Source: an uncultured Latescibacterota bacterium
GTDB lineage: Bacteria > Latescibacterota > UBA2968
DNA: 64,000 bases
Direction: 5' to 3'
Assembly: GCA_958295785.1 (NCBI GenBank)
Contig: OY282377.1
Coordinates: forward strand, 510,394-574,393
Each line of letters begins with the position of its first letter. The first letter of the stretch is position 1. Position numbers and translations under genes: made by a program. Below, piece by piece: positions 24,690 to 46,263 of this stretch. The notes beneath the pieces were generated by a model that saw only the letters and a list, made by a program, of their open reading frames with translations, did no database searches and was not told the origin of the DNA.

Positions 24690-25206
24690 CGATCAGAAAT
24701 ACAAGGACTGGTTTGTCACAGTGATGAAAGGCGATATTGTAGATAAATCGGTCGAAGATGGAGACATTGATGACCGCAATCTCAAAGTCGAAACGATTAG
24801 TCAGAAGATCCGCGACGACTTCATTGCCGACGCAACCGTTACTATCGTGCTGATCGGCCCCTGCACTTGGCAACGAAAGCATGTGGACTGGGAAATTGGT
24901 TCCAGTTTGAGGGCGACCAAGAGGAACTCCAGATGCGGTTTGTTGGGTATCCGGCTCCCTAATCATCCAGATTTTGGGAGACAAAAATATAAGCCGAGCC
25001 TGATACCGCAGAGGCTGGCGGATAATTGCGAAGGGGATGACCCCTACGCATGTATCTACGATTGGCCCGGCCAGCAGGCGACGGATCAGATTCGCCAGTG
25101 GATTCACAAGGCATTCCAAAGAAGAAATGGAACGCCGCCCAACAACAGACGGATACAATTTGGACGCAATAGAAGCGGTAATTGTTTAGATGGCTGGAAG
25201 GATTAA
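24634..25206 (+). CDS. ThsB-like TIR protein (MTH538/DUF1863 family)
   Basis: 190 aa. The MTH538-type TIR fold is seen as HKVFVSFHHDDQKYKDWF, DKSVEDGDI, IRDDFIADATVTIVLIGPCTW and RKHVDWEIGSS, with E87 in DWEI the likely catalytic glutamate. Members of this family in Thoeris (ThsB) make ADP-ribose-derived signals from NAD+ on phage infection and activate a SLOG-containing effector. Strongly similar over its whole length to the C-terminal domain of the SLOG-TIR protein at 26476-27855 (shared CTW.RKHVDWEIG, DDPYACIYDWPGQQATD), so the two are recent paralogues. Confidence 0.85.
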   Translation: MSYPPQPPRHKVFVSFHHDDQKYKDWFVTVMKGDIVDKSVEDGDIDDRNLKVETISQKIRDDFIADATVTIVLIGPCTWQRKHVDWEIGSSLRATKRNSRCGLLGIRLPNHPDFGRQKYKPSLIPQRLADNCEGDDPYACIYDWPGQQATDQIRQWIHKAFQRRNGTPPNNRRIQFGRNRSGNCLDGWKD

Positions 25207-25252
25207 AACGATTTGCAAGATTCTGAGATGTACAATCTCATGAGGTTTAATA

Positions 25253-26473
25253 ATGACTGACTCGACTCGTACGATTTTGGCGGTCTATGTCGTCTGGCAT
25301 CCCAACTATTCTGAGGGTTCGAAAATTGCCGAGTTGGTATATGAGCACTTCCGCAACGAGCGACACAAAAACGTCTTGGGGAATGTGGAACTGAGAGTCG
25401 TTTTTCGCAGTAGCCCCGCGCCCAATGCGGCACTGCCTCCTGCTATCGACTTGGATGAGGCGGAGACGACAGCGATCATCGTGCTGGCGGAGTCCAAACT
25501 TGTAGGAGACTCAGAATGGGTGGATTACATTCACAATCTCGCCGGACGCATCAAAAGCAGAGGACTTGGCTCGTGGTTGTTCCCGGTGACGCTGAAAAAA
25601 AAGGGCCTCAATATAAAAATTGACGAACAAGCCCTGCGCTGGGATCGCTGGAAAGTAACCGACGCAGAACGCGACCAACGCCTCATCAGAGAACTCGTAT
25701 ATGCGTTCAGCCTGATGCTCAGGCATTATCTCGAGCACCTCAGACATCCGGAAGAAGACGACAATGACCTTGAGCGTTACTTGAAGAAAGTGCAGATTTT
25801 TCTCAGTCATTCAAAACACGACAGCTATGGAGAACGCATCGCCGAGAAGATTCGAGATTGGTTGCACAAGAACAGCGAACTGTTGAGTTTTTTCGACAGG
25901 ATAGATATTCCCGCAGGAGTACGCTCTCAGAATGTCCTAAACCACCAAGTTAAGGCGAGCGCGGTCATGGCTGTACATACTGATTCCTACTCGTCGCGCG
26001 AATGGTGTCGGCGCGAGATCATCGAAGCGAAACACCAGAATGTTCCGATGATTGTGGTCAATTGTATGACAGATATTGACGAGCGCGGCTTTCCGTATAT
26101 GGGCAACGTACCCATCGTGCGGATGGATCCGAAGGCGACAGATCGCATCGAGGTGGTCATTGGTCGTTTGCTCGACGAAGTGTTCAAAGATTTTCTATGG
26201 CAATGCCGCGTCGAACTCGCGGGGCGATCCAACTCGGATACCTTGTTCATGCCGAGACCTCCAGAGTTAATCTCTCTTGCGAACCCGGCGTTAATCTCTT
26301 TTGCGAACGCAGAGTTGATTTCTTCTCAGGCCCTGCCGGCTGACACGGAGGTAGCGGCGCCCACGATCGTATATCCCGATCCTCCGTTGGGGGCTGAGGA
26401 AGAACAGTTGTTTGAGAAAATTGCGCCGCATGTTCGGTTACTAACCTTGAGCCAGTGGCTCGCGGAGGTGTAG
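25253..26473 (+). CDS. double TIR-domain protein
   Basis: 406 aa. Residues 8-160 look like a divergent TIR/SEFIR-like domain (ILAVYVVWHPNYSEGSKIAE, TTAIIVLAESKLVGDSEWVD). Residues 179-325 form a canonical TIR domain (VQIFLSHSKHDSYGERIAEK, FFDRIDIPAG, SSREWCRREIIEAKHQNVPM), with E255 in WCRREI as the candidate NADase glutamate. The tail ends in the LTLSQWLAEV segment often seen in proteins next to SLOG partners. The following SLOG-TIR gene starts 3 nt after its stop, so they are translationally coupled. This may be the main NADase effector of the cluster. Confidence 0.8.
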   Translation: MTDSTRTILAVYVVWHPNYSEGSKIAELVYEHFRNERHKNVLGNVELRVVFRSSPAPNAALPPAIDLDEAETTAIIVLAESKLVGDSEWVDYIHNLAGRIKSRGLGSWLFPVTLKKKGLNIKIDEQALRWDRWKVTDAERDQRLIRELVYAFSLMLRHYLEHLRHPEEDDNDLERYLKKVQIFLSHSKHDSYGERIAEKIRDWLHKNSELLSFFDRIDIPAGVRSQNVLNHQVKASAVMAVHTDSYSSREWCRREIIEAKHQNVPMIVVNCMTDIDERGFPYMGNVPIVRMDPKATDRIEVVIGRLLDEVFKDFLWQCRVELAGRSNSDTLFMPRPPELISLANPALISFANAELISSQALPADTEVAAPTIVYPDPPLGAEEEQLFEKIAPHVRLLTLSQWLAEV

Positions 26474-26475
26474 CA

Positions 26476-27855
26476 ATGGCCTATATGCCAACGATTGCTG
26501 GCAACACAGTGGCAATCTCGATATCGGAAAGCCCAGACATGTCGGTATTTGGGCTAAGCGACGCGCATCTGCGCGACGCCATGGATAGACTCGCGCTGCA
26601 TTTGCTCTCGTCCGGTGCTCGCCTCGCCTACGGTGGCGATCTGCGGGCGAACGGATTTACGGAATGGTTGTTTGAACTGGTGAGTCGCTATCGGCGCGAG
26701 ACGAGTGAAACCCAAATTGGCGTGACCAATTACCTCGCATGGCCACTCCACATAAGTATGGCCACAGACGAACTCAAGGAGATCTCCGACAGTCTTACCG
26801 ACACCGGAGATTTGGTCTGCCTAGCGCAGAATGGTCGCCGTTTGGACCCGACGACATGGCACAAACGTGCGTTGCATCAGCCAAGCGAGGGGGAATGGGC
26901 CACCGGATTGACCGCCATGCGGCGCGTCATGCGTGAGGCGACCCAAGAGAGAGTCGTATTAGGTGGGCGCGTCGCCGGTTACAAAGGCACTATGCCCGGC
27001 ATTGCGGAGGAAGCCCTGCTGTCGCTCCAGAAACGTCAGCCGCTGTTCCTGTTGGGCGGCTTCGGCGGTTGTACCCGGGATATTGCCGAGACCCTTGGAC
27101 TGGCCGAGCGTTGGGCAGGCTCCCGCCCGGATTGGCCGGGCCGCCAAAAATTTGCGGCGTTCTCATCCGATTTGAGCAATGGGCTTTCGGAGGATGAAAA
27201 CGCCACCCTCGCCCGCACACCGCACATAGATCAAGCAACCATATTGGTCATGCGGGGGCTACACCGCCTTGGACTGAGAAAGGAAAAGGAGATGAATCGA
27301 GCTAACAGGCACAAAGTATTCGTCAGTTTTCACCACAAGGATCAAGCGTACAAGGACCTGTTCGTCCGCATGATGGGAGACGATATGGTAGATAAATCGG
27401 TCGAAGATGGCGATATAGGTGACCTCAATATCAAAACGGAAACTCTTCGCCAGAAAATCCGCGACGAATTCATCGCCGACGCAACCGTTACTATCGTGTT
27501 GATTGGCCCTTGCACGTGGCGACGAAAGCATGTGGATTGGGAGATCGGGGCCAGCTTGAGGAAAACGGATAAGAACCCCCGCTGCGGTCTGTTGGGGATT
27601 CTGTTGCCCAATCACCCGGATTTTGGGACGGGAAAGTACCATCCTCACCTGATACCGCCGAGACTGGCGGATAACGGCGGAAGAGATGACCCCTACGCCT
27701 GCATTTACGATTGGCCCGGCCAGCAGGCGACGGATCGGATTCGCCAATGGATTCACAAGGCATTCCAAAGAAGAGAAGGAACGCCGCCGAATAACAACCG
27801 GGTTCAGTTTGGAAACAACAGGAGCGGTGATTGTTCGGCTGGCTGGAAGGATTAG
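26476..27855 (+). CDS. SLOG (LSDCAR-like)-TIR fusion protein
   Basis: 459 aa. Residues 10-265 are a SLOG-superfamily Rossmann domain (NTVAISISESPDMSVFGLSD, AYGGDLRANGFTEWLF with the GGDLR loop at 53-57, and FLLGGFGGCTRDIAE late). Residues 273-459 are an MTH538/ThsB-type TIR domain (HKVFVSFHHKDQAYKDLF, RKHVDWEIGAS). SLOG domains bind NAD- or ADPR-derived ligands, as in ThsA; TIR domains make them. At the junction an AAGGA site is followed by ATG 27292, in frame, so a free TIR protein could also be translated. The domain boundary coincides with the start of the paralogous gene at 24634, suggesting fusion of two neighbouring genes. Confidence 0.85.
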   Translation: MAYMPTIAGNTVAISISESPDMSVFGLSDAHLRDAMDRLALHLLSSGARLAYGGDLRANGFTEWLFELVSRYRRETSETQIGVTNYLAWPLHISMATDELKEISDSLTDTGDLVCLAQNGRRLDPTTWHKRALHQPSEGEWATGLTAMRRVMREATQERVVLGGRVAGYKGTMPGIAEEALLSLQKRQPLFLLGGFGGCTRDIAETLGLAERWAGSRPDWPGRQKFAAFSSDLSNGLSEDENATLARTPHIDQATILVMRGLHRLGLRKEKEMNRANRHKVFVSFHHKDQAYKDLFVRMMGDDMVDKSVEDGDIGDLNIKTETLRQKIRDEFIADATVTIVLIGPCTWRRKHVDWEIGASLRKTDKNPRCGLLGILLPNHPDFGTGKYHPHLIPPRLADNGGRDDPYACIYDWPGQQATDRIRQWIHKAFQRREGTPPNNNRVQFGNNRSGDCSAGWKD

Positions 27856-27965
27856 CAGCGCGTGAGGCGTTGAACAATAAATGCAAGAACTCGTTGTGAC
27901 CGCAGGCTTCAAGAGAATGTGATCATTTGACCAACTTGGAACGGACAGAGAAGGAAAAATAAACA

Positions 27966-28442
27966 ATGAATGAACAAATCAGAAACATCTTCATACCCCA
28001 CAAGCACGCGGACGACGGGGGACTGAAGGACCTTAAAAGTTTAGTCGAACGACACGGTATGACATGGCGCGATTATTCCATCACAGCGGATAACCCTAAC
28101 AACGCGCACAACGAAGATTACATAAAAGGGCAGATACTCGCTCCGCGGATACGGCAATCAGGTTGCTTAGTCGTTTATGTGTCAGAGAAAACAAAAAACA
28201 GCGACTGGGTAGAATGGGAGATAGAGTACGCGCACAAGCAAGGCAAACGGATTGTCGGAGTATGGGAGCGTGGAGCGCGAGACTGCGAATTGCCCAAAGC
28301 TCTTGAACGTTATGGTGATGCAGTCGTCGGATGGCATGGGGAAAGTATCATAGACGCAATCAATGGCAAATCCAACACTTGGTACAAGCAAGATGGATCA
28401 AACCAGGGCTACCGTAGTATTGAGCGATATTCCTGCCGATGA
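27966..28442 (+). CDS. small TIR-like protein
   Basis: 158 aa, TIR fold of the MTH538/ThsB-like kind: NIFIPHKHADDGGLKDLKSL, GCLVVYVSEKTKNSDWVEWE and IEYAHKQGKRIVGVW, with E85 of WEI as the candidate catalytic residue. It differs from the other TIR proteins here, so the cluster encodes at least four distinct TIR polypeptides. It lies 110 nt after the SLOG-TIR gene and 12 nt before the Nmad2 gene. Multiple TIR sensors feeding one effector are known in Thoeris; here it would supply another recognition specificity (inference). Confidence 0.8.
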   Translation: MNEQIRNIFIPHKHADDGGLKDLKSLVERHGMTWRDYSITADNPNNAHNEDYIKGQILAPRIRQSGCLVVYVSEKTKNSDWVEWEIEYAHKQGKRIVGVWERGARDCELPKALERYGDAVVGWHGESIIDAINGKSNTWYKQDGSNQGYRSIERYSCR

Positions 28443-28454
28443 AGAGGTGAACAG

Positions 28455-29051
28455 ATGCCAACGCTATATTCGTATGTGGTGGCGAGAGACTTCGGCTTTG
28501 CCCCGAATCCGTTTTATGGTTTCTGTACGCTAGCTACTTGCAAACCAAGAATACGAAAGGCCGCTCAAGTCGGTGACTGGATAATTGGGACCGGGTCAAA
28601 GTCAAAAGGACGAAAACGGCATATCGTCTATGCTATGTGCGTGAACGAAGTAATGTCGTTCAACGAGTACTGGCAAGACCCTCGCTTTCACGAAAAGCGT
28701 CCCGATATGTGCGCCAGTATCCGCAAAGCCTTTGGAGACAATATTTACTATCGAGACAATACTTCAAACGAATGGATCCAAATAGATTCTCACCACAGTT
28801 ATGAATGTGGAAAGCCAAATCTTAAAAACCTGTGTCACGACACAAAGATAGACCGGGTTCTCATCAGCGACGATTTTATCTATTGGGGTGGTAGCGGTCC
28901 CCAAATCCCCACATTCTCTGAAATTGATATTTGTAAACGCGGCCCAAGTCACAAGTGTGAGTTTCCCAAAAAAGTAATTGAAGATTGCATCGCATGGTTG
29001 CGTCGTTTCAATGAGACGGGCTACTGTGGTACTCCGCTGGAATGGACATAA
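28455..29051 (+). CDS. nucleotide modification associated domain 2 (Nmad2) protein
   Basis: 198 aa. The start LYSYVVARDFGFAPNPFYGF, then CTLATCKPRIRKAAQVGDWI and IGTGSKSKGRKRHIVYAM, is characteristic of Nmad2. That domain was defined by association with enzymes of modified-nucleotide metabolism and with phage or defence loci; its biochemical activity is not established. It follows the small TIR gene closely and ends 8 nt before hsdS2. It may recognise modified DNA or a modified nucleotide made during infection (inference from family context). Confidence 0.8.
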   Translation: MPTLYSYVVARDFGFAPNPFYGFCTLATCKPRIRKAAQVGDWIIGTGSKSKGRKRHIVYAMCVNEVMSFNEYWQDPRFHEKRPDMCASIRKAFGDNIYYRDNTSNEWIQIDSHHSYECGKPNLKNLCHDTKIDRVLISDDFIYWGGSGPQIPTFSEIDICKRGPSHKCEFPKKVIEDCIAWLRRFNETGYCGTPLEWT

Positions 29052-29059
29052 AGCCTACT

Positions 29060-30394
29060 ATGCCCTCCAATCTGAAACCCTACCCCACCTACAAGCCCTC
29101 CGGCGTCGAGTGGCTCGGCGATGTGCCGGCGCATTGGGAGGTGCGGCGGTTGAAGTGGGTCGCATCGTTGAACCCGAGTAAGACCGAAGCGCGTACATTC
29201 CTTACAGCAGATACGCCGGTGACGTTTCTCCCCATGGAACGAGTAGGAACAGATGGGGAAATAGATGAGAAAGTGGTCTCTGCCTCTGGCGTTTGGAATG
29301 GCTTTACTTATTTTCGACGAGACGATGTTCTTGTTGCCAAAATCACGCCGTGCTTTGAGAATGGCAAGGGCGCGTGTCTCGATGCCCTATCTACAGAAAT
29401 CGGTTTCGGTTCAACGGAATTTCACGTCCTGCGAGCGGGCTCTTCCATCTCCCCACAGTTTCTGTACCGCCTGACCACCCTTGCACAATTTCGACATTCT
29501 GGTGCTGAGGAGATGACGGGTGCGGCCGGTCAACAACGCGTACCACAGGCATTCGTGGCCAACTACCCACTCCCGATTCCACCCCTCGCCGAACAAGCCG
29601 CCATCGTCCGCTACCTCGATCACACCGACGGGCGCATCCGCCGCTACCTTCGCAGCCGGGAGCGGCTCATCGAGTTGCTGAAAGAGTATCGGCAGGCCGT
29701 TATCCACGAGGCGGTCATGCGCGGGCTTGACCCGGACGTGCCCCTCAAGCCCTCTGGCGTCGAGTGGCTCGGCGATGTGCCGGCGCAGTGGGAAGTGCGG
29801 CGGTTGAAGCACTGGGTCGGAATAAATGAGGCGGTGCTACCCGAAACAACAGATCCCGACTTTGATTTTCGTTATCTGGAAATCGGCGCAGTAGGCACTG
29901 GTGTACTCGTAGAGGAACCTTCCACCATTCGTTTCGCTCATGCGCCATCGAGGGCTAGGCGCATCGTCAAAAGCGGAGATACCATCATCTCCACAGTGAG
30001 GACGTACTTGAAAGCGGTTTGGTTTGCCGAAGAAGTGAACGACGCCTTGATCTGCTCAACGGGCTTTGCTGTTCTTACTCCGCGCCGTGCAACTGCGCCC
30101 AAATTCGTGAGTTATGTGGTCCAGAATAACGCATTTACCGACCGCGTAACAGCGGAATCGGTTGGCATTGCGTATCCGGCCATTGCTGAAAGTCGCTTTC
30201 GTTCATTTCATGTATGCGTTCCACCCCTCGCCGAGCAAGCCGCTATCGCCGCGTATTTGGACAAACAGACCGCCGCCATCGACGCTGCCATTACTCGTGC
30301 CCGTCGGGAAATTGACTTGTTGAGCGAATACCGCACTCGCCTGATCGCCGACGTGGTCACCGGCCAAGTGGATGTGCGCGAGGTGGCTGACTGA
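29060..30394 (+). CDS. hsdS: type I restriction-modification specificity subunit HsdS2
   Basis: 444 aa with the same two-TRD design as hsdS1. Residues 1 to about 250 (TRD1 and first spacer) are nearly identical to hsdS1 at protein and DNA level. After WEVRRLK, TRD2 is unrelated (HWVGINEAVLPETTDPDFDF). The final spacer and tail (LAEQAAIAAYLDKQTAAIDA, LIADVVTGQVDVRE) are again shared. The complex built with HsdS2 should keep one half-site and change the other. I prefer ATG 29060 (MPSNLKPYP) over 29042, because the latter overlaps the Nmad2 gene and is not conserved. Confidence 0.93.
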   Translation: MPSNLKPYPTYKPSGVEWLGDVPAHWEVRRLKWVASLNPSKTEARTFLTADTPVTFLPMERVGTDGEIDEKVVSASGVWNGFTYFRRDDVLVAKITPCFENGKGACLDALSTEIGFGSTEFHVLRAGSSISPQFLYRLTTLAQFRHSGAEEMTGAAGQQRVPQAFVANYPLPIPPLAEQAAIVRYLDHTDGRIRRYLRSRERLIELLKEYRQAVIHEAVMRGLDPDVPLKPSGVEWLGDVPAQWEVRRLKHWVGINEAVLPETTDPDFDFRYLEIGAVGTGVLVEEPSTIRFAHAPSRARRIVKSGDTIISTVRTYLKAVWFAEEVNDALICSTGFAVLTPRRATAPKFVSYVVQNNAFTDRVTAESVGIAYPAIAESRFRSFHVCVPPLAEQAAIAAYLDKQTAAIDAAITRARREIDLLSEYRTRLIADVVTGQVDVREVAD

Positions 30395-30403: not shown

Positions 30404-30646
30404 ATGCTAGTGCCCCCTCAGCCAAAGATATACCATATTGTTCATCTGGATCGGCTCAAATCCATTATTGCAGACAACTATCTCTGGTGCGACGCGGAGA
30501 TACTAAAACGCCAACTTCCCGGCACCCCGATTGGCATGAACAACATCAAGCAACGCCGCCTCACGACTCATTTGAGAAGTCATTCAGACCTGTGCGTGGG
30601 CGACTGTGTGCCATTCTACTTCTGTCCGCGTTCTGTTATGCTCTAA
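30404..30646 (+). pseudogene. darT: darT (DUF4433) DNA ADP-ribosyltransferase, truncated
   Basis: 80 aa of the DarT N-terminus: KIYHIVHLDRLKSIIADNYL, the ADP-ribosylating-turn region, IGMNNIKQRRL, and VGDCVPFYFCPRSVML. DarT attaches ADP-ribose to thymidine in single-stranded DNA and is neutralised by DarG. The frame stops exactly where the ~109-bp IS5 derivative starts (30646), so the C-terminal half with the catalytic glutamate is lost. No darG macrodomain gene is present. It lies 9 nt after hsdS2. An inactivated toxin-antitoxin/defence gene. Confidence 0.85.
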
Positions 30647-30836: not shown

Positions 30837-32717
30837 ATGGGATCAAGTAGCAATGACTCAATTTCCAACGCAAAGGTAATAAGCATAAGTTGGAAAAATC
30901 GGGGTTCACCGTGTAAATTCATTTATTTTCAACGGGATTCTGATTCAAAAGAGGTGCTTCAAGTTCCCCGTTCGGCGTGTGTAACGACGGGGGATATACT
31001 CGAATTTGCTGATAATGCTGTTTATGTCCGTTGCGAAAATGGAAAAGCGCGAGTATCTCCGATTTATTCAAAGCCAGATGTGATACAACTCGGTGGATTA
31101 ACATTACCTGTCCATGTCAAAGAAATTACCGAACCCGAAGAATACCAAGCGTATCGCCATTTGACATTGGAACACTATCGCGGCAAGTCATTATTTGGAC
31201 GACACGCGCCTCTAGTGATGTGTGCTTTTCATCCGCTTCTTCCGTCTGTCGTCGGCTATATTGAATTGGCGACCGCTTTTTTTGCTTGTAAACCACGTCG
31301 CAATCTCTTTGATGTGGCTTGTCAACTCAATGGCGTCAGTTGGCAGCAATGGAATCTCAACATCGCTCGGAATTACATTTCGCTGTTCGTTAGGATTGCC
31401 CGTTGTGTAGTTCATCCTGAACTTCGCAGTACAGGGGTTGGACAACTGCTCGTCAAACACGCTGCCGAATTTGCGAAGACGCATTGGCAGAGCGGCGGAT
31501 GGCAACCTTATGTGCTTGAAATTTCCGCGGATATGCTTCGATATGTCCCTTTCGCCGAAAACGCCGGAATGACTTATATCGGAGAAACAGAAGGAAATAT
31601 ACATCGCATTACCAACGACATCGGTTACCTAATCAAAAACAGGGATAGACTAAAGAATGGAGAAATTTTTTCTGGAGATTGTTGTGGGATTGTTGATGCC
31701 AAACTCTCGCAATTTCAGGCATTGCTCAACTCGTATCAGATAGATACAGATATAACAGTTGAACAGGCATTGGCGGACATAAAACGGCAAGCGCAACGCG
31801 CAACGCTCAAAGGTCTGTCAAAGCTGAAAGATGTATTGGTCTTTCCAAAGCCAGTCTATGTAAAAGGGTTGCATCCGGACGCATCTAAGTTTATTAAGCG
31901 ACGTATTTCCGAACTCAATGTCGAGTCCGTTTTTGCATCTGAAAAAAAAATGATGATTCATCACAAGCAAACTCCTAAGCCTATCGAGACATCCATTCAA
32001 CTCGACAGCGTGGGGGTAGAATTTACCAACCGTGTGCGCCGTACCCAACTCACTCATAAAGTGGAAGATGCGTTTGGTATCTCATTAGATACCCTGACAG
32101 AACCGATTTTCAAAGACTTAACCGTTTCCATTGCCCCCGGAACCTTATGGCTCGTCACAGGCGTGTCCGGTACAGGCAAGAGTACATTCCTCACGTTGTT
32201 AAACGGAGAACTGTCGCCTAAAACCGGGCACCTTCGTATGCCCCAAAATGCACACATTAGAACGCTTGAACCAATACGTTCTACGAAAGCCCTCATTGAG
32301 GTGTTCGGCAAAGGCGATGTTGGTCGGGGGCTTGAGTTGATGAATACTGTCGGTTTGTCTTCAGCATTTCTTTACGTGAAGCCCTTTCAACAGTTGAGCG
32401 AAGGACAAAAGTATCGAGCCATGTTAGCTACTCTCTTGGCAGCGGAGAGTAACCTTTGGCTCATTGATGCGTTTTGCGAAAATTTAGACCTGATTGCTAC
32501 AAATCTTATTGCAAAAAAATTATCTATTTTAGCGCGTGACCGAAGCGCGACTGTCATCGTCACAGCTTCGGACTATACCCGCTTTTTGGAGGCACTTCAA
32601 CCAGACAACATTCTATTATTTCAAGGGGCAACACAACACAGAATTTTTACATTTGCTGAGTTTCAAACATGGATAAAAAAAACAAACGAAGTCAAAATAC
32701 GGCTCAAGGAAAGGTAG
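30837..32717 (+). CDS. GNAT acetyltransferase-ABC ATPase fusion, first gene of DISARM-like operon
   Basis: 626 aa. After about 75 unrelated residues comes a GNAT domain (ARCVVHPELRSTGVGQLLVK, motif A, near residue 190-208). A linker leads to a C-terminal ABC ATPase with Walker A GVSGTGKST (about 441), signature QLSEGQKYRAML (about 518) and Walker B LWLIDAFCENLD (about 541). The usual glutamate after the Walker B aspartate is alanine, and the H-loop histidine is not evident. ATG 30837 is chosen for its GGAAG site. The next gene starts 9 nt later. No characterised DISARM system that I know has this subunit. Confidence 0.82.
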   Translation: MGSSSNDSISNAKVISISWKNRGSPCKFIYFQRDSDSKEVLQVPRSACVTTGDILEFADNAVYVRCENGKARVSPIYSKPDVIQLGGLTLPVHVKEITEPEEYQAYRHLTLEHYRGKSLFGRHAPLVMCAFHPLLPSVVGYIELATAFFACKPRRNLFDVACQLNGVSWQQWNLNIARNYISLFVRIARCVVHPELRSTGVGQLLVKHAAEFAKTHWQSGGWQPYVLEISADMLRYVPFAENAGMTYIGETEGNIHRITNDIGYLIKNRDRLKNGEIFSGDCCGIVDAKLSQFQALLNSYQIDTDITVEQALADIKRQAQRATLKGLSKLKDVLVFPKPVYVKGLHPDASKFIKRRISELNVESVFASEKKMMIHHKQTPKPIETSIQLDSVGVEFTNRVRRTQLTHKVEDAFGISLDTLTEPIFKDLTVSIAPGTLWLVTGVSGTGKSTFLTLLNGELSPKTGHLRMPQNAHIRTLEPIRSTKALIEVFGKGDVGRGLELMNTVGLSSAFLYVKPFQQLSEGQKYRAMLATLLAAESNLWLIDAFCENLDLIATNLIAKKLSILARDRSATVIVTASDYTRFLEALQPDNILLFQGATQHRIFTFAEFQTWIKKTNEVKIRLKER

Positions 32718-32726
32718 GGAAGCAAA

Positions 32727-35216
32727 GTGTTTGAAAGCGAATATTGGCGACAAATATACGCCAACCTTGATCGGATGTCTTCCAGCCGGGACAACTTTTT
32801 TCGAGCAATTTGGGAGAAAGAACGCTTGTGCTTTAAGGGTGGAAAAAACTCAGTAGATGAGGTAGATAGACATAGCGCGCAGTTAATTTGTGCTACTCAA
32901 ATCCAGCGACAATCACTGCTCATTGTTCTGCCTGATGAAGCACCACATCGCATTCCATTAGTATTTGCAACCGCCTTGTTGAAGCAGGCTTTCGATCATA
33001 TAAATATTCAGTCTCATCCCGTCGTTTATTTTGGTGCAACAGCAAGTATTCGGGACTCTTTGTCCCAAACGTATTGTGGAAATTTTTGCCTCAAGGAGCT
33101 TTTTACCCAAACAGACCTAAAGAGAAATACCAACACTAACTTACCGACCCCTGACCTTCAAAACCGTTTGCCTCATATTATTTTTTCTAATACGCCGACA
33201 AATCCCGATCAAATCGTTGCTTCTTATCGACCTGCTTGGTGTTTCGTAGATCTCGGCAACGGTGAACGGTTGAAGTGGTTCCCGTCCTGTTTGGAAGCAC
33301 TTCAGCAAGCCCATGTTCCGGTTATTGCTTGCATTCAAAATCCACTTTCAGATGCGATCCAGCAGTGTCAAGAGGCTGGCTGGCAAATTTTTCGATGGCC
33401 ATACCCAACATATAGCCAGACAGACAAAAAAAGCACTATCGTTCACCCGGTGGTGATAGAAGGCGAAACGGTTGACGGGTACACTGAGCAGTATTTACAG
33501 GTCTATCGCTCTCTTTTTGACCTATCAAAAAAAATAAAAGACAAATTTGCCTCTGACGCGCTGCGAGTCATTCGGCAGTACGCGCAAAATTTGGAACAGT
33601 TGAACACGCCCTACGATTTTTACGAAGCGGAGAGTTCGCAGTTTTGGGGAGTCTATTCGCTTTTGGATTCTCAAAAAACAGCTTCATGTTTTGTCGAAAA
33701 TCTTCAAAGCGAACGACCATCGTTGGGTCAATCTTTGTATGATGCATGTGAAAAGTTAGATCGGCTTCACCAAAGATTCCAATCAGGGGAAGAACCGCCT
33801 TTGTGGGATACACTGTGCAACCTTTGCGTTTCTAAACTCAAAAAGAACTGTGTCCGTCTTCTTGTGTTTCCAAGTGAAGCCCGTAAAACCCTGTTTGCCC
33901 TTGCCCTACTTGCATACCACGATATTTCGCCAGATGATCTTGCTTCCATCAACGTTTGGCTAATCAGCCTCAAGCAATTTAACCAGTGGCAACGTATGCG
34001 TGAACACTATGAACATGGCAAAGCGTATATTGATGACGCTCCTAAAGCTCTCGTTGACAAACTTTGGACCCCGCTTTTGGTCGGTGTCCCTTATCACTCT
34101 GCAAGGTATGCCCCTCTGCTGCGTTGTGAGAAGTTGGACGCTTTACTCCACCCGCATCAAGTTAGATTATTCTCATTCTGCATCGATAAATGTAACCAAT
34201 CGCTCCATACCGAACACCCTGACAATCTACAAGTTTTGTCAGTGCTTGCCCAACAACCTGTCGTAAAGAACTGCAACCCCACATCCTCGCGTGTTGAGGT
34301 GGCACCCCATAAAAAAATTAAAGTTGAAAAAATAAAAAAAGGGGCATCCCCAAAAGTACCAGAGATATTCCATGTCCCAAAACGTGTTGATGAAATGGCT
34401 TGGCTGATGAAAACGAACGATGATTTTGTTGATGAATCCGTTTTGATAGATGAACCAACTACGGAGATAAAAACAAAAGTAATCAAAGAAACGATAAGTG
34501 TTGAAAGGGTGATTCGCGTGACATTTTGCGAAGGGTTGCAGGTGTTGCTTCCTTTGAACGCGACAATACAAGTCGTTTTACAAACGACCCAAAAACGAAA
34601 ACTGGATGAACGTAGCATTCGCTCACTCCGCGTCGGTGATACAGTTCTGTTCATACAAGGGCAACAGCGGCAGAACCTTTATGAACTCATCGTATCGCGT
34701 GTTCACGCCCACCCTTCCTTTGCCCTGTATCTGAACTTGATTCAGAAATGGCAGGATGAAGTGGTTCAGGGTGCGAAGATGTCCGGGTTGACACCAGAAG
34801 AAATCTTGAGTCGGATGAGACAACGCGGAAGTCAACTTCAGACACAGCAAGCCATTCGGCTTTGGCTCAACAGAGGTGTTATGGGCCCCAGCGACCCAAA
34901 AGACCTTGGGCGAATTGCCGACGTACTTGACCTGTCCTTTGTGAAACAATATCAAAGTCAAATCGTGCGTGCTGCCTCTCGTTTGCGCGGCATCCACAGA
35001 GGACTTGCACGCAAGTTGAACAGTTGGCTTCAGCGAGGAGCAGTGGAAGCAACGCCTGAACAGATGAACGAACTTATCGACCCGGATTTAGGCATTGCGT
35101 TCAACGACTTTCAAGATGCCTTGCGTCTGCTAACGGTCAAAGAAATCGAACAGGTAGAGGGGCTTTTCTTGACTTCAGACTTAGGGCAGTTATCAGAGGA
35201 GATGAACTATGGATAA
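32727..35216 (+). CDS. DrmE-like DISARM-associated protein
   Basis: 829 aa, no catalytic motif recognised. The N-terminal half has alpha/beta features of a degenerate nucleotide-binding fold (SLLIVLPDEAPHRIPLVFAT, HPVVYFGATASIRDSL). A basic Lys-rich linker lies near residues 530-545 (KKIKVEKIKKGASPK). The C-terminal part (RSLRVGDTVLFIQG, TPEEILSRMRQRGSQLQTQQ, LNRGVMGPSDPKDLGRIADV) resembles DrmE of class 2 DISARM, which also precedes drmA. Assigned by partial similarity, length and position. It overlaps drmA by 8 nt. Confidence 0.6.
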   Translation: MFESEYWRQIYANLDRMSSSRDNFFRAIWEKERLCFKGGKNSVDEVDRHSAQLICATQIQRQSLLIVLPDEAPHRIPLVFATALLKQAFDHINIQSHPVVYFGATASIRDSLSQTYCGNFCLKELFTQTDLKRNTNTNLPTPDLQNRLPHIIFSNTPTNPDQIVASYRPAWCFVDLGNGERLKWFPSCLEALQQAHVPVIACIQNPLSDAIQQCQEAGWQIFRWPYPTYSQTDKKSTIVHPVVIEGETVDGYTEQYLQVYRSLFDLSKKIKDKFASDALRVIRQYAQNLEQLNTPYDFYEAESSQFWGVYSLLDSQKTASCFVENLQSERPSLGQSLYDACEKLDRLHQRFQSGEEPPLWDTLCNLCVSKLKKNCVRLLVFPSEARKTLFALALLAYHDISPDDLASINVWLISLKQFNQWQRMREHYEHGKAYIDDAPKALVDKLWTPLLVGVPYHSARYAPLLRCEKLDALLHPHQVRLFSFCIDKCNQSLHTEHPDNLQVLSVLAQQPVVKNCNPTSSRVEVAPHKKIKVEKIKKGASPKVPEIFHVPKRVDEMAWLMKTNDDFVDESVLIDEPTTEIKTKVIKETISVERVIRVTFCEGLQVLLPLNATIQVVLQTTQKRKLDERSIRSLRVGDTVLFIQGQQRQNLYELIVSRVHAHPSFALYLNLIQKWQDEVVQGAKMSGLTPEEILSRMRQRGSQLQTQQAIRLWLNRGVMGPSDPKDLGRIADVLDLSFVKQYQSQIVRAASRLRGIHRGLARKLNSWLQRGAVEATPEQMNELIDPDLGIAFNDFQDALRLLTVKEIEQVEGLFLTSDLGQLSEEMNYG

Positions 35217-38200
35217 TGGAAATTGGACACCGCGAGAAGAAGCACAAGAAGAGGAAAAATTGGCAACCCATATTGCAGAGCACGTTATAGGTCAGGCTTC
35301 GGGTAGGTTAAAAAATGAATGTCTTTTTAACTTGCCACGCGATTGCTACTTTGTCGGAAATCTGCGTTCGGCAGCAGGCGAAAACGATAAAAATGAAAAT
35401 CGCTCGACACGCGACTGGCGAAACAAATTGGCACCTGTTTCCTTCGGGGCTGAATTTATGGCCTGCCCTCAAGATGATGAATTGGCAATAGGGGTAACCG
35501 TTAAATGGTCCTGTTACTATCGCGTATTCCCAACCTACCAACAACAACGTGATTTCCAAATACCTGACGCGGAAACCGACCAACAACCCGCTACTGAACG
35601 GATAGCGCAGAAAGACGACGCAAAAAATGTTGAACCTGAAGATGATGCGGAAAGGGCAGCACGATGGGAACTGGAACGCGACCGTCAAGAGGCACAAGCG
35701 GAACGCCGCCAGCAACGAGAAAAACGGGATGCGCTTTGCCCACGCTTCAGAAAAATATCGTGTCAAGCGGTAGGGAATGTCCTTTTCCGAAAAGGAACGG
35801 ATGGCGCATTGGCAATTGACAAATCCAAACTGGAACAGGCATTAGATGCAGAAGTTCAGCGAGCGCGACAGGTTGTCTTGGAAGACCCCGAGCGATTGCG
35901 ACATATCAGCGGTGATATGGATGGGCAGGTCAATATCCCGGAAACAGCATTGACCTCAGAAATCGAATACAACCGTTTCAAAGAACAACCTGGAAACGAA
36001 ATTCCGCTTTCATGGGCGTGGGAGGTACAAGGCAACTGTGAAAGCCAGTCAAATGCCGGTGAATCGGGCAACCTGTTTATATCCATCAACTTTACAAACG
36101 CTTCTCCCATGCCTGATCGTTCATCAACCCGCGAAAACTTTTTATTCGATACGGCGGTTGAGCTTCGGTTCACAAATGGTCAGATTATCCCCTTTACATT
36201 AGAACTCGCTCCTGATGGCTTTCGATATGACCGAAACCTTTGGGGCCGTGGGTTTAACTGCGCCGTTGAAAAGATTTCCGAAACCGAATATCACACGACG
36301 CACACACCGCACTATCGCCAGATGCGCTACTTGACAAGCACTGAGCCGGAAGCTCGATTTGAAGCGTTGGCAAATGATCCGATTCCTGTTCTCGAATCAA
36401 TTCGATCCGCCATGTATGCAAGTCTGAAGCAATGGGATAGTAGTGAAGCGGAATATCGACAACATTTTAGTAGCCAATGGGAGGCTGAATTTAAGAATGA
36501 GTTTGATCAGGATAAGGCCCGGTTTAGGGATGAAATTCAGTGCTTTGAACGAGGATTGGAACTTGTTCGCAACAATACCGATATTCGACTTGCATTCCAA
36601 CTGACCAATGAAGTCTTTAGACGCGCCGGTGAGCATCCATCACCCAATAAAAGTAAGCAAGCGTGGCGACTCTTTCAGATTGTCTTTCTCGTCAACCAAA
36701 TCTCCGGTATCGCCTCTCTTGTTCAACCTAATAGTTCCGACGCTTTAGAACGTGAAAGGGTGGACATCATTCATTTTTCCACCGGTGGGGGTAAGACGGA
36801 AGCCTACTTGGGTGTTCTGGTTTTTCACTGTTTCTTTGATCGGTTGCGTGGAAAATGCGCTGGTGTGACCGCGTGGACACGATTTCCGTTGCGCCTACTC
36901 ACGCTTCAACAGACGCAGCGGATGGCAGACATCATCGGCACAGCCGAATTGGTGCGTCTTGGACATACAGACCCACGTCTGATCGGAAAAGGCGTCACGG
37001 GATTCTCTGTCGGCTATTTTGTCGGTAAGGAAGGAACACCGAATGAGTTGGTAAACGTCAGTCAAGTGCAAAGACCTAAAGGTGAGGAAAGAGTCAACTG
37101 GAGTAAGGCACAAGATGAAAAAGAGCGTCAGCGATGGAAGCGCGTTGTCACTTGTCCGTCCTGCCGCACAAATACAGTTCAAGTTGATCTGGATGAACAA
37201 AAGGTACGTATCCGTCATCGCTGTAGAAATAAAAACTGTGCGTTTCCCAATGGGTTTCTTCCCATATATGTCATTGACAACGAGATCTATCGTTACTTGC
37301 CCTCTGTCATTGTTGGAACGATTGATAAGCTCGCAGGGTTAGGCAATCAGCGTAAATTTTCGCTCATCTTTGGACAGGTGACAGGTTATTGTACCATACA
37401 TGGGTACTACAAAGGTGCTAAGTGCTGTCAGAAAGATTGCGACAATAGACATCTAAAGGAAAAGGTGCCTAGAGGACTTTCAGGACCGACGCTATTTATT
37501 CAGGATGAGTTACATTTGTTGCGCGAAGGGCTCGGTACGTTCAATGCCCATTATGAAACCTTTACACAAGAACTTCTAAGACAGTTTGGACAGACAGAGC
37601 CGCTAAAGGTAATCGCATCCTCTGCCACAATTGAAGCCTTTGATAGACAGGTCGAACACCTCTATGGACGAACCAAAGCACAAGCTCGAGTTTTTCCAGC
37701 TCCTGGGCCAACTCTTGGAAGTTCTTTTTATGCTCAAACACAGGATTACCCACAACGACTCTTTTTGGGTATTCTCCCACATAATAAGACCATCTTCAAC
37801 GCGACGCTGGAAATTTTGCAATACTATCATGAAACCCTGCAAACATTGCAGAAACTGCCGAGTGGTGCCCCCAATCCATACAAGGGTCGCGTTCAACCGG
37901 GAAGTTCTGCTTGGCAGAAATTGATTGACAATTATGTGACTTCGCTGGCCTATTTCCTTGCGGGGCGTGACCTGAGTTCAATTCACACCGATTTAGAAAA
38001 CGCTGTCAATACAGGATTGCAACGACAGGGCTATCGACTGCTGGAAATCGCAGAAATGACGGGTAGTACTTCGACTTCAGAAGTGACGCGCATTCTCGAA
38101 AAGGTCGAAACTCCGCATCCACCTCCAGGTGAGGCCCCCGACACAATTTTAGCCACGAGTATGATCAGTCACGGCGTAGATGTAAACCGATTTAATGGAA

Positions 38201-38769
38201 TGCTATTTTACGGCATGCCGCGCCAAAACGCCGGATACATTCAGGCTTCCAGCCGTATCGGCCGCCAACACGTTGGCGTGGTGCTAATGTGCCTGCATCC
38301 AACGAGAGAACGCGACCAGAGCCACTACGCCTACTTCACAAAATTCCATGAGTTTTTGGGGCAACTCATAGAACCTGTAGCAATTAACCGCTGGTCAAAA
38401 TTTAGTGTTCAGCGAACCTTGCCTGGATTGTTTATGGGCGTACTGCTACAATATATTGCCAATCGTTCAAGTGAGAACAATCCCAACAAATTTTATATGC
38501 TCGATTTTGTCAAAAAGCAAATCATTAGCGACCAATTGTCTGAAAGTGACTTTGTTCCATTACTTGAAGCGGCTTATGGCGTCACGCACCCCAACAATCC
38601 GGCAGAAGAAGGGTTTCGATCAGAAATTCGTCGGTACGTTAGACTTTTCTTAGACCAGATCGGCAGTGCCGGAAGCCATGAGTTGTTTGTATCAAACACC
38701 TTAATTCCACGTCCCATGCTGAGTCTCCGAGATGTGGATGAAGCCATCGAGATTGAATTGGACGATTGA
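35209..38769 (+). CDS. drmA: DrmA-like superfamily 2 helicase
   Basis: 1186 aa. Walker A HFSTGGGKTEAYLG (about 521-534), a zinc-binding insert (CPSC...CRNKNC, about 647-680, and a second Cys cluster near 725-745), DExH box FIQDELHLL (about 763) and motif III ASSATIEA. The C-terminal helicase domain has ATSMISHGVDVNRFN and YIQASSRIGRQHVG. In DISARM, DrmA forms with DrmB the core complex that loads on incoming DNA, favouring 5' overhangs. The first 500 residues are an acidic, coiled, lineage-specific part. Intact and more AT-rich than the flanking hsd genes. Confidence 0.85.
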   Translation: MDNGNWTPREEAQEEEKLATHIAEHVIGQASGRLKNECLFNLPRDCYFVGNLRSAAGENDKNENRSTRDWRNKLAPVSFGAEFMACPQDDELAIGVTVKWSCYYRVFPTYQQQRDFQIPDAETDQQPATERIAQKDDAKNVEPEDDAERAARWELERDRQEAQAERRQQREKRDALCPRFRKISCQAVGNVLFRKGTDGALAIDKSKLEQALDAEVQRARQVVLEDPERLRHISGDMDGQVNIPETALTSEIEYNRFKEQPGNEIPLSWAWEVQGNCESQSNAGESGNLFISINFTNASPMPDRSSTRENFLFDTAVELRFTNGQIIPFTLELAPDGFRYDRNLWGRGFNCAVEKISETEYHTTHTPHYRQMRYLTSTEPEARFEALANDPIPVLESIRSAMYASLKQWDSSEAEYRQHFSSQWEAEFKNEFDQDKARFRDEIQCFERGLELVRNNTDIRLAFQLTNEVFRRAGEHPSPNKSKQAWRLFQIVFLVNQISGIASLVQPNSSDALERERVDIIHFSTGGGKTEAYLGVLVFHCFFDRLRGKCAGVTAWTRFPLRLLTLQQTQRMADIIGTAELVRLGHTDPRLIGKGVTGFSVGYFVGKEGTPNELVNVSQVQRPKGEERVNWSKAQDEKERQRWKRVVTCPSCRTNTVQVDLDEQKVRIRHRCRNKNCAFPNGFLPIYVIDNEIYRYLPSVIVGTIDKLAGLGNQRKFSLIFGQVTGYCTIHGYYKGAKCCQKDCDNRHLKEKVPRGLSGPTLFIQDELHLLREGLGTFNAHYETFTQELLRQFGQTEPLKVIASSATIEAFDRQVEHLYGRTKAQARVFPAPGPTLGSSFYAQTQDYPQRLFLGILPHNKTIFNATLEILQYYHETLQTLQKLPSGAPNPYKGRVQPGSSAWQKLIDNYVTSLAYFLAGRDLSSIHTDLENAVNTGLQRQGYRLLEIAEMTGSTSTSEVTRILEKVETPHPPPGEAPDTILATSMISHGVDVNRFNGMLFYGMPRQNAGYIQASSRIGRQHVGVVLMCLHPTRERDQSHYAYFTKFHEFLGQLIEPVAINRWSKFSVQRTLPGLFMGVLLQYIANRSSENNPNKFYMLDFVKKQIISDQLSESDFVPLLEAAYGVTHPNNPAEEGFRSEIRRYVRLFLDQIGSAGSHELFVSNTLIPRPMLSLRDVDEAIEIELDD

Positions 38770-38824
38770 ATCAGAATCGTTTAGGGTGCTTTACTCTGTA
38801 AAGCGAAAAAAAGAGGAATTTGAT

Positions 38825-40720
38825 ATGAAAATGACGCGCGGGAAACAGCAAATTCTGTTCAATTATTTGCCCGGCAAAACTTTCGATTTTGATAAATCAA
38901 ATCGCCTGGCCCAAATTACGTCAATTCGGGGAATGCAGAAGACCGACCTCAATGTGGATTTGGTGTTGCAGGCAGTTAAACGGTATGCCTCTGCATGGCA
39001 GGAAAATTTAGCAAGGATTTTCCACCGTCTGCATCCAGATCAAGTTGTGTTGCTGGAACCTCAAAAAGTCTATTCGCAGACTTATCCCAAAGTGCTGTGG
39101 TGTCAGGAAAAATCGTGTGGCTGTGTTTTCGACTCTTATGCCCAAGTTCAGCTTGATGGTGCCTGTCCAAATTGTAAGAAGAAACGACTGATTCAATTAC
39201 GTTGGATTAAGGTACATCGTTGTGGACATATCGAACCGCTGACCCCTCCCTATCACTGCCCAAATTGCAATGGTATCAGTGGTCGATTCAGGCTTGATAC
39301 ACGCGGGAGTGAACGTATCAGTGGGTTTCGTTGGATATGCCGCAAATGCAAGAAACCGACACCTCTATTTGGTGGTTATTGTAGCGGATGCAACTGGAAA
39401 GAAATGACTGGAGAAACCGAAAAACGCTTACGCCAAATGAATATCGAAGTGCATCGTGCCGGACGTACATACTACCCGCATTACGTTGAACTGCTCAATC
39501 AACCTGGATCAGAAATGAATGCGTTTTTGGAAACGGACGATTGGCAGTTGGTCACGGCTGCCTATTTTTTGGAATTGCCTCAGACTCAAGGACAGTCGCT
39601 GATGGGCTTTGTCAAACAACGAAGCCAGAGTAATCAAGCACAATTTGAGCTTTCCGAAGCAGAAGAGTCACAACTTCGCGCAATGGGTTACACGGATGAA
39701 CAAATTGAGCAATATCGGCAGATGCAAGAGAGCTTAAAAGGTAACTGGCAAACAAGCCCTCAGAATCAATCAACAGCGGACATTGGGCAAACCTTAGTTG
39801 AGCAAACGGGAGTTTCTGGAGAGATTTGGCGCAACGCTGGACAGGAGATGCTCGAAGCTGTCTTGCCCGCCGAAACGGGGCATAGTACACAAGAATTATT
39901 TGGCTTAGACAATCCATCGCCAAATCAACAAACCGCCGGTCAAATCGCTCGGCACATGGGAATTGAACGCCTGACTTTAACCACTGATTTTCCGATGACA
40001 TTGGCAACATTCGGGTTTAGTCGCGTCGCTTATGAGCCAGACGAATGCAGATTGAACGCCTTCCCTGCCGACGGTGACCATCAAGGCAAATTTCCGATTT
40101 TTGTAGATGTTGTACAAGCTGACGCTATCATTGTTCGTTTAGATGCCGAGCGGGTGTGGGGGTGGTTGAAGACCAATGACTTTTCGCCCACGTTACCAAA
40201 TGCCACAAATCCCGCCGTAGCACGCCAAGCGTATTTTGTCCAGATGTTCAATAACATTCCATTGCGCCAGCGTCTGACGAACGATGAAGCTGAAGCTCGT
40301 ATGGTTTTCGGACTTTTACATACCATGAGTCACTTATTCGTCCGCCGTGCTTCGCTACTGTGTGGACTCGATAAAACGAGTCTTGCTGAGTATGTGCTTC
40401 CGCGTGCCTTGACCTTTGCGATCTACTGCAACCATCGCCATGGAGCGACCATCGGCGCATTGGCATCTCTTTTTGAACAGTCGCTGGCAGAATGGTTAAG
40501 TCAGGTCCAGAACGATACCCGCCGTTGCGTCTATGACCCTGTTTGCCATCAGCAACACGGTGGAAATTGCCACGCTTGCACGCATCTCGCTGAAACCAGT
40601 TGTCGATTTTTCAATTTGAACTTGGGAAGATGTTTCCTCTTTGGTGGACTGGACGAAGAATTGGGGGACATTAAAGGTTACTTTGACTCCAGCCTGAATG
40701 TGAAAGTAAATCAGGGATGA
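38825..40720 (+). CDS. drmB: DrmB-like DUF1998 protein
   Basis: 631 aa. The N-terminal half has several zinc-binding pairs (WCQEKSCGC, CPNCKKKR, CPNCNG, CRKCKK, CSGC, about residues 95-205). The C-terminal DUF1998 domain has the conserved TMSHLFVRRASLLCGLD, CNHRHGATIGALASLFEQSL, and the Cys cluster CVYDPVCHQQHGGNCHAC. DrmB partners DrmA in the DISARM core. I start it at ATG 38825 behind AGAGGAA; an upstream in-frame ATG at 38732 lies inside drmA. Last gene of the operon, followed by a terminator. Confidence 0.85.
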   Translation: MKMTRGKQQILFNYLPGKTFDFDKSNRLAQITSIRGMQKTDLNVDLVLQAVKRYASAWQENLARIFHRLHPDQVVLLEPQKVYSQTYPKVLWCQEKSCGCVFDSYAQVQLDGACPNCKKKRLIQLRWIKVHRCGHIEPLTPPYHCPNCNGISGRFRLDTRGSERISGFRWICRKCKKPTPLFGGYCSGCNWKEMTGETEKRLRQMNIEVHRAGRTYYPHYVELLNQPGSEMNAFLETDDWQLVTAAYFLELPQTQGQSLMGFVKQRSQSNQAQFELSEAEESQLRAMGYTDEQIEQYRQMQESLKGNWQTSPQNQSTADIGQTLVEQTGVSGEIWRNAGQEMLEAVLPAETGHSTQELFGLDNPSPNQQTAGQIARHMGIERLTLTTDFPMTLATFGFSRVAYEPDECRLNAFPADGDHQGKFPIFVDVVQADAIIVRLDAERVWGWLKTNDFSPTLPNATNPAVARQAYFVQMFNNIPLRQRLTNDEAEARMVFGLLHTMSHLFVRRASLLCGLDKTSLAEYVLPRALTFAIYCNHRHGATIGALASLFEQSLAEWLSQVQNDTRRCVYDPVCHQQHGGNCHACTHLAETSCRFFNLNLGRCFLFGGLDEELGDIKGYFDSSLNVKVNQG

Positions 40721-40783
40721 TTCGATTGGATTTGCATTTCAAACTGGCTATGAGATGTTAGTCGCTTTGTAATCTAAAAAAAT

Positions 40784-40816
40784 AAAATCCCGCTCGGCAT
40801 GACCCAGCGGGATTTT
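40784..40816 (+). terminator. terminator after the DISARM-like operon
   Basis: An 11-bp perfect stem AAAATCCCGCT/AGCGGGATTTT with an 11-nt loop, T-rich on both sides, 63 nt after the drmB stop. Confidence 0.85.
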
Positions 40817-40837
40817 GTTTGGCTATATGTAGGGGAA

Positions 40838-45515: not shown

Positions 45516-46253
45516 TTATCCCATCGCCATAGCGGCAATCCTTCCTGCCAATATCGACATAAAACTCCGCATGCCTGTCAACTGACTGCGACTCTGATAC
45601 GCTCCTGTACCCATTGCTGAACGTTGTGTAAGAACAAGCGCGACTGCATCATATAATCTTTCTTGAATCAATTTGCGACAAAAAATTTCGTACCGTGCGG
45701 CATAGCTGGTATTCTCAAATTCTGGCAGGACTGCGAAATGAGGCGAGTAAAAGCGAACCGGAGTCATTGATGCTCGACATTCTTCCAAAACAAAAAAGTA
45801 GCCCACAAAAGGCTTCTGTGACTCCGCAAATGCACCTTCCCGAAAAGCTGTGTTCAAGTCCGTAGCATTGCCCAATGCCTCTTCTATCCGATTATTAAAG
45901 TTGTTGCCAAAAGAAGGGCCAACTTGTGACTTGAGTTCAATTGCTGCCAGAAGCCGATTTTTACTCATGACCAGCATATCCCAGTTTTTCGTTGGTCGAT
46001 AAAACCCAGGAAGCGTCCGTTCTCTTCTGCCATCAGTATAGACCATCACCTCATTGATGCCATTATCAACGATCAGTTGCCTTATCATCGCTGTGAAACC
46101 ATCGAGGTTTTTACCGGCAGTCACACTGGCTCTATTCCCTCTGTCCTTTACTCCGCGTTTCCTTTGGCTTTCAACAGCCCGAAAACGAGATTTCCAAAAA
46201 TGTTTTACCGCATCGGACATCAGATTCTCGTAGGCATTGATATCGACTGACAT
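45516..46253 (-). CDS. XhoI/PaeR7I-family type II restriction endonuclease
   Basis: 245 aa, the normal length. It shows the family pattern AGKNLDGFTAMIRQLI, LPGFYRPTKNWDMLVMSKNR (D92), LLAAIELKSQVGPSFGNNFN (E106-x-K108), ALGNATDLNTAFREGAF, and TSYAARYEIFCRKLIQERLY. XhoI and PaeR7I cut CTCGAG, so that specificity is plausible but not proven. ATG 46253 with GAAGAG upstream gives MSVDINAYENLMSDAVKHFW. Upstream in-frame codons lie inside the methylase gene. Co-transcribed with the methylase, 10 nt downstream of it. Confidence 0.88.
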   Translation of the reverse strand: MSVDINAYENLMSDAVKHFWKSRFRAVESQRKRGVKDRGNRASVTAGKNLDGFTAMIRQLIVDNGINEVMVYTDGRRERTLPGFYRPTKNWDMLVMSKNRLLAAIELKSQVGPSFGNNFNNRIEEALGNATDLNTAFREGAFAESQKPFVGYFFVLEECRASMTPVRFYSPHFAVLPEFENTSYAARYEIFCRKLIQERLYDAVALVLTQRSAMGTGAYQSRSQLTGMRSFMSILAGRIAAMAMG

Positions 46254-46263
46254 TTTACACTCT

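Follow-up and report, generated by a model that had tools for sequence, protein, structure and literature searches.

In a 64,000-nucleotide stretch of an uncultured Latescibacterota bacterium (contig OY282377.1 of assembly GCA_958295785.1, positions 510,394 to 574,393; hereafter the window), a gene for a GNAT acetyltransferase fused to an ABC ATPase (GNAT-ABC) precedes genes for DrmE-, DrmA- and DrmB-like proteins. In published accounts DISARM depends on methylation to leave self DNA alone, and we consider it rather probable that the window operon is a methylase-free, class-2-like DISARM variant with GNAT-ABC as its putative self-marking enzyme. The gene content of the operon, its recurrence as a conserved unit, the single clade formed by its DrmA proteins, the exchange of methylase and GNAT-ABC genes in one slot, the re-partnering of GNAT-ABC with HerA and its linkage to YqfB-type ASCH domains were all computed directly.

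Recurrence of the operon across phyla

Bacterial and archaeal genomes were scanned with the N-terminal/GNAT part of four homologues and the loci were then read gene by gene; L017 and L147 were added from other searches. GNAT-ABC was found to precede drmE-drmA-drmB in 15 loci (the window, L017 from genome G008 of the same genus, L024-L029, L031-L034, L036, L038 and L147) and was the first gene of the operon in all of them. These loci represent at least eight phyla, namely Poribacteria, KSB1, Chloroflexota, Acidobacteriota, Pseudomonadota, Gemmatimonadota, Latescibacterota and Planctomycetota. An earlier note, made from the window sequence alone, had proposed a methylase-free DISARM-like operon headed by GNAT-ABC, to be abandoned if GNAT-ABC showed no association with drmA and drmB in other genomes; the association is strong over the 15 loci, and the operon is borne out as a conserved, horizontally moving unit. 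Chance juxtaposition of GNAT-ABC with drm genes was rejected on the basis of these loci and of the DrmA-first search described below.

The 3' end can be read in 13 of these loci, L017 and L025 stopping short of the drmC position, and in 10 of the 13 the operon is continued by drmC, which encodes a small PLD protein. Two of the PLD proteins were scanned with PADLOC and matched DrmC, and one scanned against NCBIfam matched the DrmC model of that collection. The window operon, L026 and L028 were without drmC, and a search of their genomes for a family member in trans gave nothing but one weak partial match. Since DrmC is reportedly not required by ordinary DISARM, which often lacks it (PMC9142583), the absence of drmC from the window needs no new principle. 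The suggestion of the earlier note that the acetyltransferase-ATPase replaces DrmC was rejected, as the two genes co-occur in those 10 loci.

Other arrangements were also observed. In L039 (4620-5915) the GNAT half is fused in frame to the C-terminal part of DrmB with drmC still following, apparently the scar of a deletion which removed ABC, drmE and drmA. A 1227-residue protein with the same N-terminal sequence, possibly caspase-like as judged by eye, is encoded beside drmB in L148 (2767-6450) and L152 (12126-15809), two genomes of one phylum. Weak matches (E about 1e-7 to 1e-10), limited to a short piece of the GNAT region, came from many archaeal, Thermus and Chloroflexota loci (L050-L102).

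Exchange of GNAT-ABC with the methylase gene

A search which started from DrmA and was blind to GNAT-ABC was carried out in 400 genomes of another phylum. Two DrmA proteins with 57% identity to that of the window were recovered, both behind GNAT-ABC, and the next DrmA, at 41% identity, came from a locus with the order C5 methylase, small open reading frame, drmE, drmA, drmB. A C5 methylase gene stands ahead of drmA-drmB-PLD in two further loci, with a drmE-like gene between in one of them, while a Rubrobacter plasmid carries a DUF1156-type methylase gene followed by a drmE-sized gene, drmA, drmB and PLD, and Halobacterium has drmE-drmA-drmB-PLD with a C5 methylase gene beside it. In the sampled loci, a small set of methylase-type DISARM relatives, GNAT-ABC sits in the methylase slot of the nearest relatives. 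To that extent the positional swap implied by the earlier note, in which the acetyltransferase-ATPase stands in for the methylation gene, was recovered. A crude motif screen detected methylase-like frames within 5 kb in three of 13 GNAT-linked loci (L028, L029 and L031); these differ in kind and two are on the opposite strand.

The 14 GNAT-linked DrmA proteins formed one clade (Shimodaira-Hasegawa-like approximate likelihood ratio test 100) in a tree of 24 rows made by a quick method with no bootstrap. The label of L151 as methylase-associated in this tree is unsupported by its gene list, and the GNAT clade is unaffected. Pairwise distances were correlated (GNAT-ABC against DrmE, r 0.79; GNAT-ABC against DrmA, r 0.61; p 2e-4), the distance-matrix correlations among GNAT-ABC, DrmE and DrmA ranging from r 0.61 to 0.85. 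The window and G008, which belong to one genus, carry different lineages with GNAT-ABC proteins of 39% identity, and the G008 protein is nearest to an Acidobacteriota copy (67%), indicating that the cassette moves as a block.

HerA-type operons

The same GNAT-ABC family heads nine operons with a HerA-type ATPase (L040, L041, L043, L045, L046, L030, L035, L042 and L047). Following HerA, a conserved unknown gene and a BrxD/mad8-like AAA ATPase gene were present in the eight loci where the contig allows, and a PLD gene in seven. In the GNAT-ABC tree the HerA-type L030 and L035 fall inside an otherwise DISARM-type group, on a branch with support of 86/96 that is not starred. The GNAT-ABC family thus behaves as a portable module that serves two different DNA-translocase machines, as would be expected of a modification unit. 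MADS was considered and rejected, similarity to mad3/mad8 being limited to the ATPase.

The PLD protein of L043, L045 and L046 has a long N-terminal extension which looks possibly RelE-like by eye. A scan of IMG/VR for viral spread, with six peptide patterns only, confirmed no relative; in phages the ABC half alone was matched at E below 1e-12 and the GNAT half gave no match. One distant plasmid relative was found, in Thermomicrobium roseum (L022, 13981-16262), where GNAT-ABC has a Cys-rich insert and is adjoined by an ASCH gene, with no DISARM or HerA genes nearby.

Linked ASCH domains

An ASCH domain is fused to GNAT-ABC in L017, L028 and L030, and in L026 and L027 a small ASCH gene lies between GNAT-ABC and drmE. 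The best PDB match of the ASCH profile (A6) was the N4-acetylcytidine amidohydrolase YqfB (E 4.1e-8). Of the Lys-Thr-Glu triad and Arg of YqfB, K21, T24 and R26 are invariant in five of five linked domains, and Y89 is kept too, but Glu74 is replaced by Asp, and other relatives lack the motif. The domain is fused or adjacent to a putative writer. Mutation has identified K21, T24 and R26 as essential in YqfB, which hydrolyses N4-acyl-cytosines including N4-acetyl-2'-deoxycytidine (PMC6972931).

Architecture of the GNAT-ABC protein

Pfam searches of the window protein matched ABC_tran (3.1e-13) and Acetyltransf_1 (5.2e-4, barely at the gathering score). Four parts were distinguished: an N-terminal beta domain (residues ~10-85), the GNAT domain (~88-273), a helical linker (~285-376) and the ABC ATPase (~387-605), and the secondary structure of an AlphaFold2 model made with 27 homologues (predicted local distance difference test, pLDDT, 88.2; predicted template modelling score 0.86) fits this layout. 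Among the 27 homologues H113, Y114, R189, G200, W217 and E228 are invariant. The window copy combines, in a fused model of high confidence, an ABC ATPase with a GNAT domain whose acyl-coenzyme A (CoA) loop is intact at the conserved R197 and G200. Foldseek searches of the model in two libraries were dominated by ABC proteins and gave no lead to the GNAT substrate.

A detail absent from the earlier note is that the Walker B motif is LIDAFC in the window ABC domain but LIDEFC in most homologues. L041, L042 and L044 likewise have no Glu at this position (A, N and D instead), and in the family alignment L024 keeps it. Given the Ala and these three other members without Glu, the window GNAT-ABC copy may be slow, regulated or decaying.

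The DISARM core proteins

The assignment of the remaining genes to DrmE-, DrmA- and DrmB-like families, and of the first to GNAT-ABC, had been made in the earlier note and agrees with the Pfam, PADLOC and NCBIfam profile matches. The DrmE of DISARM class 2 is present (Pfam DrmE_C 4.7e-46; NCBIfam DrmE_fam 89 bits, over the cut-off of 80), with the DISARM_DrmE equivalog below cut-off. The DrmE model (pLDDT 77.7) contains two RecA-like regions whose Foldseek matches are superfamily 2 helicases at low TM-scores (template modelling, 0.2-0.4), and in none of 15 homologues inspected were the GKT and DExH motifs present where expected. DrmE of the GNAT-linked clade may be an inactive helicase scaffold, probably ATPase-dead, a view we hold with modest confidence.

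DrmA was recognized by PADLOC (2.6e-155) and by NCBIfam DISARM_DrmAS (444.6 bits, the equivalog cut-off of 950 not being reached), and carries STGGGKT at residue 524 and DELH at residue 766; at E 1e-5 its sole match in its own genome was itself. DrmB, of the DUF1998 type, was likewise recognized by PADLOC (1.7e-49), with 74 bits against a cut-off of 240 for NCBIfam DrmB_fam. No PLD frame lies 3' of the window drmB, so that the slot filled by drmC in relatives is empty, and no DrmC was detected in trans in the window genome (best E 0.097). There is also no methylase gene in or adjoining the operon, in agreement with what the earlier note had said of both genes; the nearest in the window are those of HsdM and of an XhoI-type system (Table 1). 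With methylase and DrmC both missing, the operon as judged by gene content is not a full DISARM member. The earlier note had allowed that a methylase or PLD gene in trans might complete a normal DISARM here. For the PLD gene this found no support, whereas 15 C5-methylase matches elsewhere in the genome leave room for such a methylase.

Layout, origin and surroundings of the operon

The genes are arranged in the order GNAT-ABC, DrmE, DrmA, DrmB, separated by a 9-nt gap, an 8-nt overlap and +55 nt, and a hairpin closes the operon (Table 1). Open frames, order, spacing and hairpin all agree with the four tightly spaced genes and terminator of the earlier description. The DrmB start which gives the +55 nt spacing was favoured because the alignment with homologues begins only at residue 32-33 of the longer frame.

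Table 1. Features of the GNAT-ABC operon and its surroundings (positions in the window).
Feature	Position	Strand	Basis
GNAT-ABC fusion, 626 aa	30837..32717	+	Pfam, AlphaFold2 model, homologue alignment
GNAT acyl-CoA loop RSTGVGQ, aa 197-203	31425..31445	+	R197 in 26/27, G200 in 27/27 homologues
ABC Walker A GVSGTGKST, aa 442-450	32160..32186	+	invariant G442, S444, G445, G447, K448
ABC signature LSEGQ, aa 520-524	32394..32408	+	L, S, G, Q invariant, 27 homologues
Ala codon GCG (A545), Walker-B catalytic Glu position	32469..32471	+	Glu in 23/27 homologues
DrmE-like protein, 829 aa	32727..35216	+	Pfam DrmE_C, NCBIfam DrmE_fam
DrmA-like YprA-family helicase, 1186 aa	35209..38769	+	PADLOC DrmA
DrmB-like protein	38825..40720 (start favoured over 38732)	+	PADLOC DrmB
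Terminator-like hairpin closing operon	about 40780..40820	+	about -21 kcal/mol, T-rich stretch after
Second HsdS-like gene, then CAP12/Pycsar-type TIR effector gene	15776..17951
Type I R-M genes hsdR, hsdM and hsdS, with intervening cassette of TIR/ThsB-like proteins (one SLOG-TIR fusion) and Nmad2 protein	18754..30394
HsdM	21754..23859
DarT ADP-ribosyltransferase, N-terminal third	30404..30646		Pfam DarT 7.8e-23, profile 1-71 of 201
XhoI-type restriction endonuclease and N6/N4 methylase	45516..47409	-
M gene of the XhoI-type system	46264..47409	-

The GC content of the operon is 0.445-0.472 (0.42-0.46 at third codon positions, GC3) compared with 0.62-0.63 for hsdR/hsdM and 0.57 for hsdS, confirming that it is more AT-rich than the hsd genes to its left. 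A high-similarity GNAT-ABC gene was present in only 2 of 11 genomes searched within the genus. Low GC and GC3 together with this distribution fit the acquisition of the operon as a unit, which the earlier note had suggested.

To the left of the operon, the TIR/ThsB-like cassette splits hsdR/hsdM from hsdS, and the truncated DarT gene lies between hsdS and the operon. Nmad2 is a nucleotide modification associated protein. A second HsdS-like gene is followed by the CAP12/Pycsar-type effector gene, and the XhoI-type system resembles the DISARM-like operon in AT-richness.

Relation to known systems

DISARM class 2 (drmE-drmA-drmB-drmC with the C5 methylase drmMII) has the DrmE, DrmA, DrmB order in common with the window operon; drmC is found in most GNAT-linked relatives, and the nearest sampled relative lacking GNAT-ABC carries a C5 methylase. 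The window operon differs in having GNAT-ABC at its head and neither methylase gene nor drmC, and its DrmA and DrmB score below the NCBI curated cut-offs. ARMADA, BRIGADE, TALON and Druantia (PMC12458937) also combine a YprA/DrmA-family helicase core with modification or nuclease partners, but these are a PglX-like methylase with BrxHII, 7-deazaguanine genes, NERD nuclease or DruH, and the main text of that preprint does not mention acetyltransferase, ABC or DrmE. In the part of the source available on BREX-related capture (HerA, GNAT, TGT; PMC12839542) a GNAT is likewise proposed as self-marker beside a HerA translocase; there, however, PglZ, DUF6079, DUF4007 and a STAND NTPase are described, the GNAT is not presented as an ABC fusion and no DISARM genes appear.

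A close precedent comes from Aravind and colleagues, who predicted acyl modification of a DNA base by a GNAT paired with an ABC ATPase (PMC7824862). As far as the accessible portion of that account goes, the pairing is one of phages and involves neither DISARM nor HerA, and the original paper may mention the operons reported here. Both DISARM with its core proteins and the notion of a GNAT-ABC modifier are already known. A partial search of the literature found neither a recurrent methylase-free GNAT-ABC DISARM clade with ASCH and HerA links nor any mention of a GNAT-ABC fusion or COG2401; priority for the combination of GNAT-ABC with DISARM is unproven.

Proposed mechanism and alternatives

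In the working we propose, the ABC domain would dimerise with ATP on DNA and so position the N-terminal and GNAT domains, and the GNAT domain would move an acyl group, probably acetyl, from CoA onto the exocyclic amine of a base, with cytosine N4 as the leading candidate. The acyl mark would turn host DNA into a poor substrate for DrmAB, by analogy with methylated DNA, on which DrmAB ATPase is lower (PMC9142583). Helped by the probably ATPase-dead DrmE, DrmAB would then load on unmarked invading DNA, translocate and block replication, and DrmC where present, or another nuclease, would degrade the invading DNA. DNA as substrate, its acylation, the choice of base and sensing by DrmAB are what we infer. 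A base, perhaps cytosine, is suggested as target because of the published GNAT-ABC prediction, the C5 cytosine methylase exchanged in the closest sampled relative and the YqfB-like ASCH domains, which would make N4-acylcytosine the leading candidate mark. The wider proposal, that DISARM-type systems and a second, HerA/PLD-type system tell self by N4-acylation (acetylation) of DNA cytosine, with GNAT-ABC writing and YqfB-like ASCH reading or erasing, is put forward only tentatively and may well prove wrong.

Several observations weigh against a self-marking role. The window ABC domain is without its Walker-B glutamate, and the C5-methylase matches elsewhere in the genome have to be accounted for. 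Only generic Pfam acetyltransferases were matched, with no specific GNAT family, so that the GNAT substrate is not fixed by homology, and a profile (A2) searched against PDB gave weak, generic GNAT matches only. No ASCH domain is present in the window copy or detectable in its genome, the C-terminal region of several relatives is without the K/T/R motif and unrecognised by Pfam, and the ASCH of T. roseum belongs to a different subtype. It is also odd to find an amidohydrolase beside a putative writer, as it would erase the mark unless it were a reader, a free-nucleotide enzyme or a corrector.

GNAT-ABC could instead be an effector or switch that acetylates protein, charged tRNA or another host target, with DrmABE relying on DNA structure alone to sense the invader. 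Toxins of the GNAT type are well known, and by Pfam the domain here is a generic one. DISARM can work in the absence of its methylation motif, and DrmAB is responsive to DNA structure (PMC9142583). We nevertheless judge an effector role unlikely, as the gene occupies the methylase slot of sampled relatives and is linked to YqfB-type ASCH domains, its product partners both DrmABE and HerA-PLD machines, and the conserved unit includes no recurrent antitoxin-like partner. Somewhat less probable again is an ordinary class-2 DISARM served by a methylase in trans, in which GNAT-ABC would be an accessory such as a DNA-bound ATPase clamp recruiting the helicase. The 15 C5-methylase matches and the XhoI-type methylase 5.5 kb away would provide for this arrangement, but the GNAT-linked DrmA clade has no recurring methylase neighbour, methylase-like frames being confined to three of 13 loci, and GNAT-ABC leads the operon in all 15.

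A further explanation, that the window copy is a decaying remnant, concerns the copy and not the family and is compatible with any of the others. A545 in place of the Walker-B Glu, the loss of drmC in cis with none detected in trans, and the DarT fragment next door would all suit decay. On the other hand, none of the four long frames is interrupted, and they preserve the motifs of the GNAT domain, Walker A, the ABC signature and the helicase; the Glu is missing in L041, L042 and L044 too, and drmC, missing in the KSB1 and Aridibacter loci, is dispensable elsewhere. Decay seems improbable.

If the self-marking role of GNAT-ABC is true, restriction in these operons would be based on an acyl mark instead of methylation. 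A recurrent change from methylase to acetyltransferase-ATPase would show that the restriction core does not depend on any one chemistry of marking, and would single out operons and hosts for a search for an acylated DNA base in bacteria. It would also give the predicted GNAT-ABC modification family a testable role common to two DNA translocase systems.

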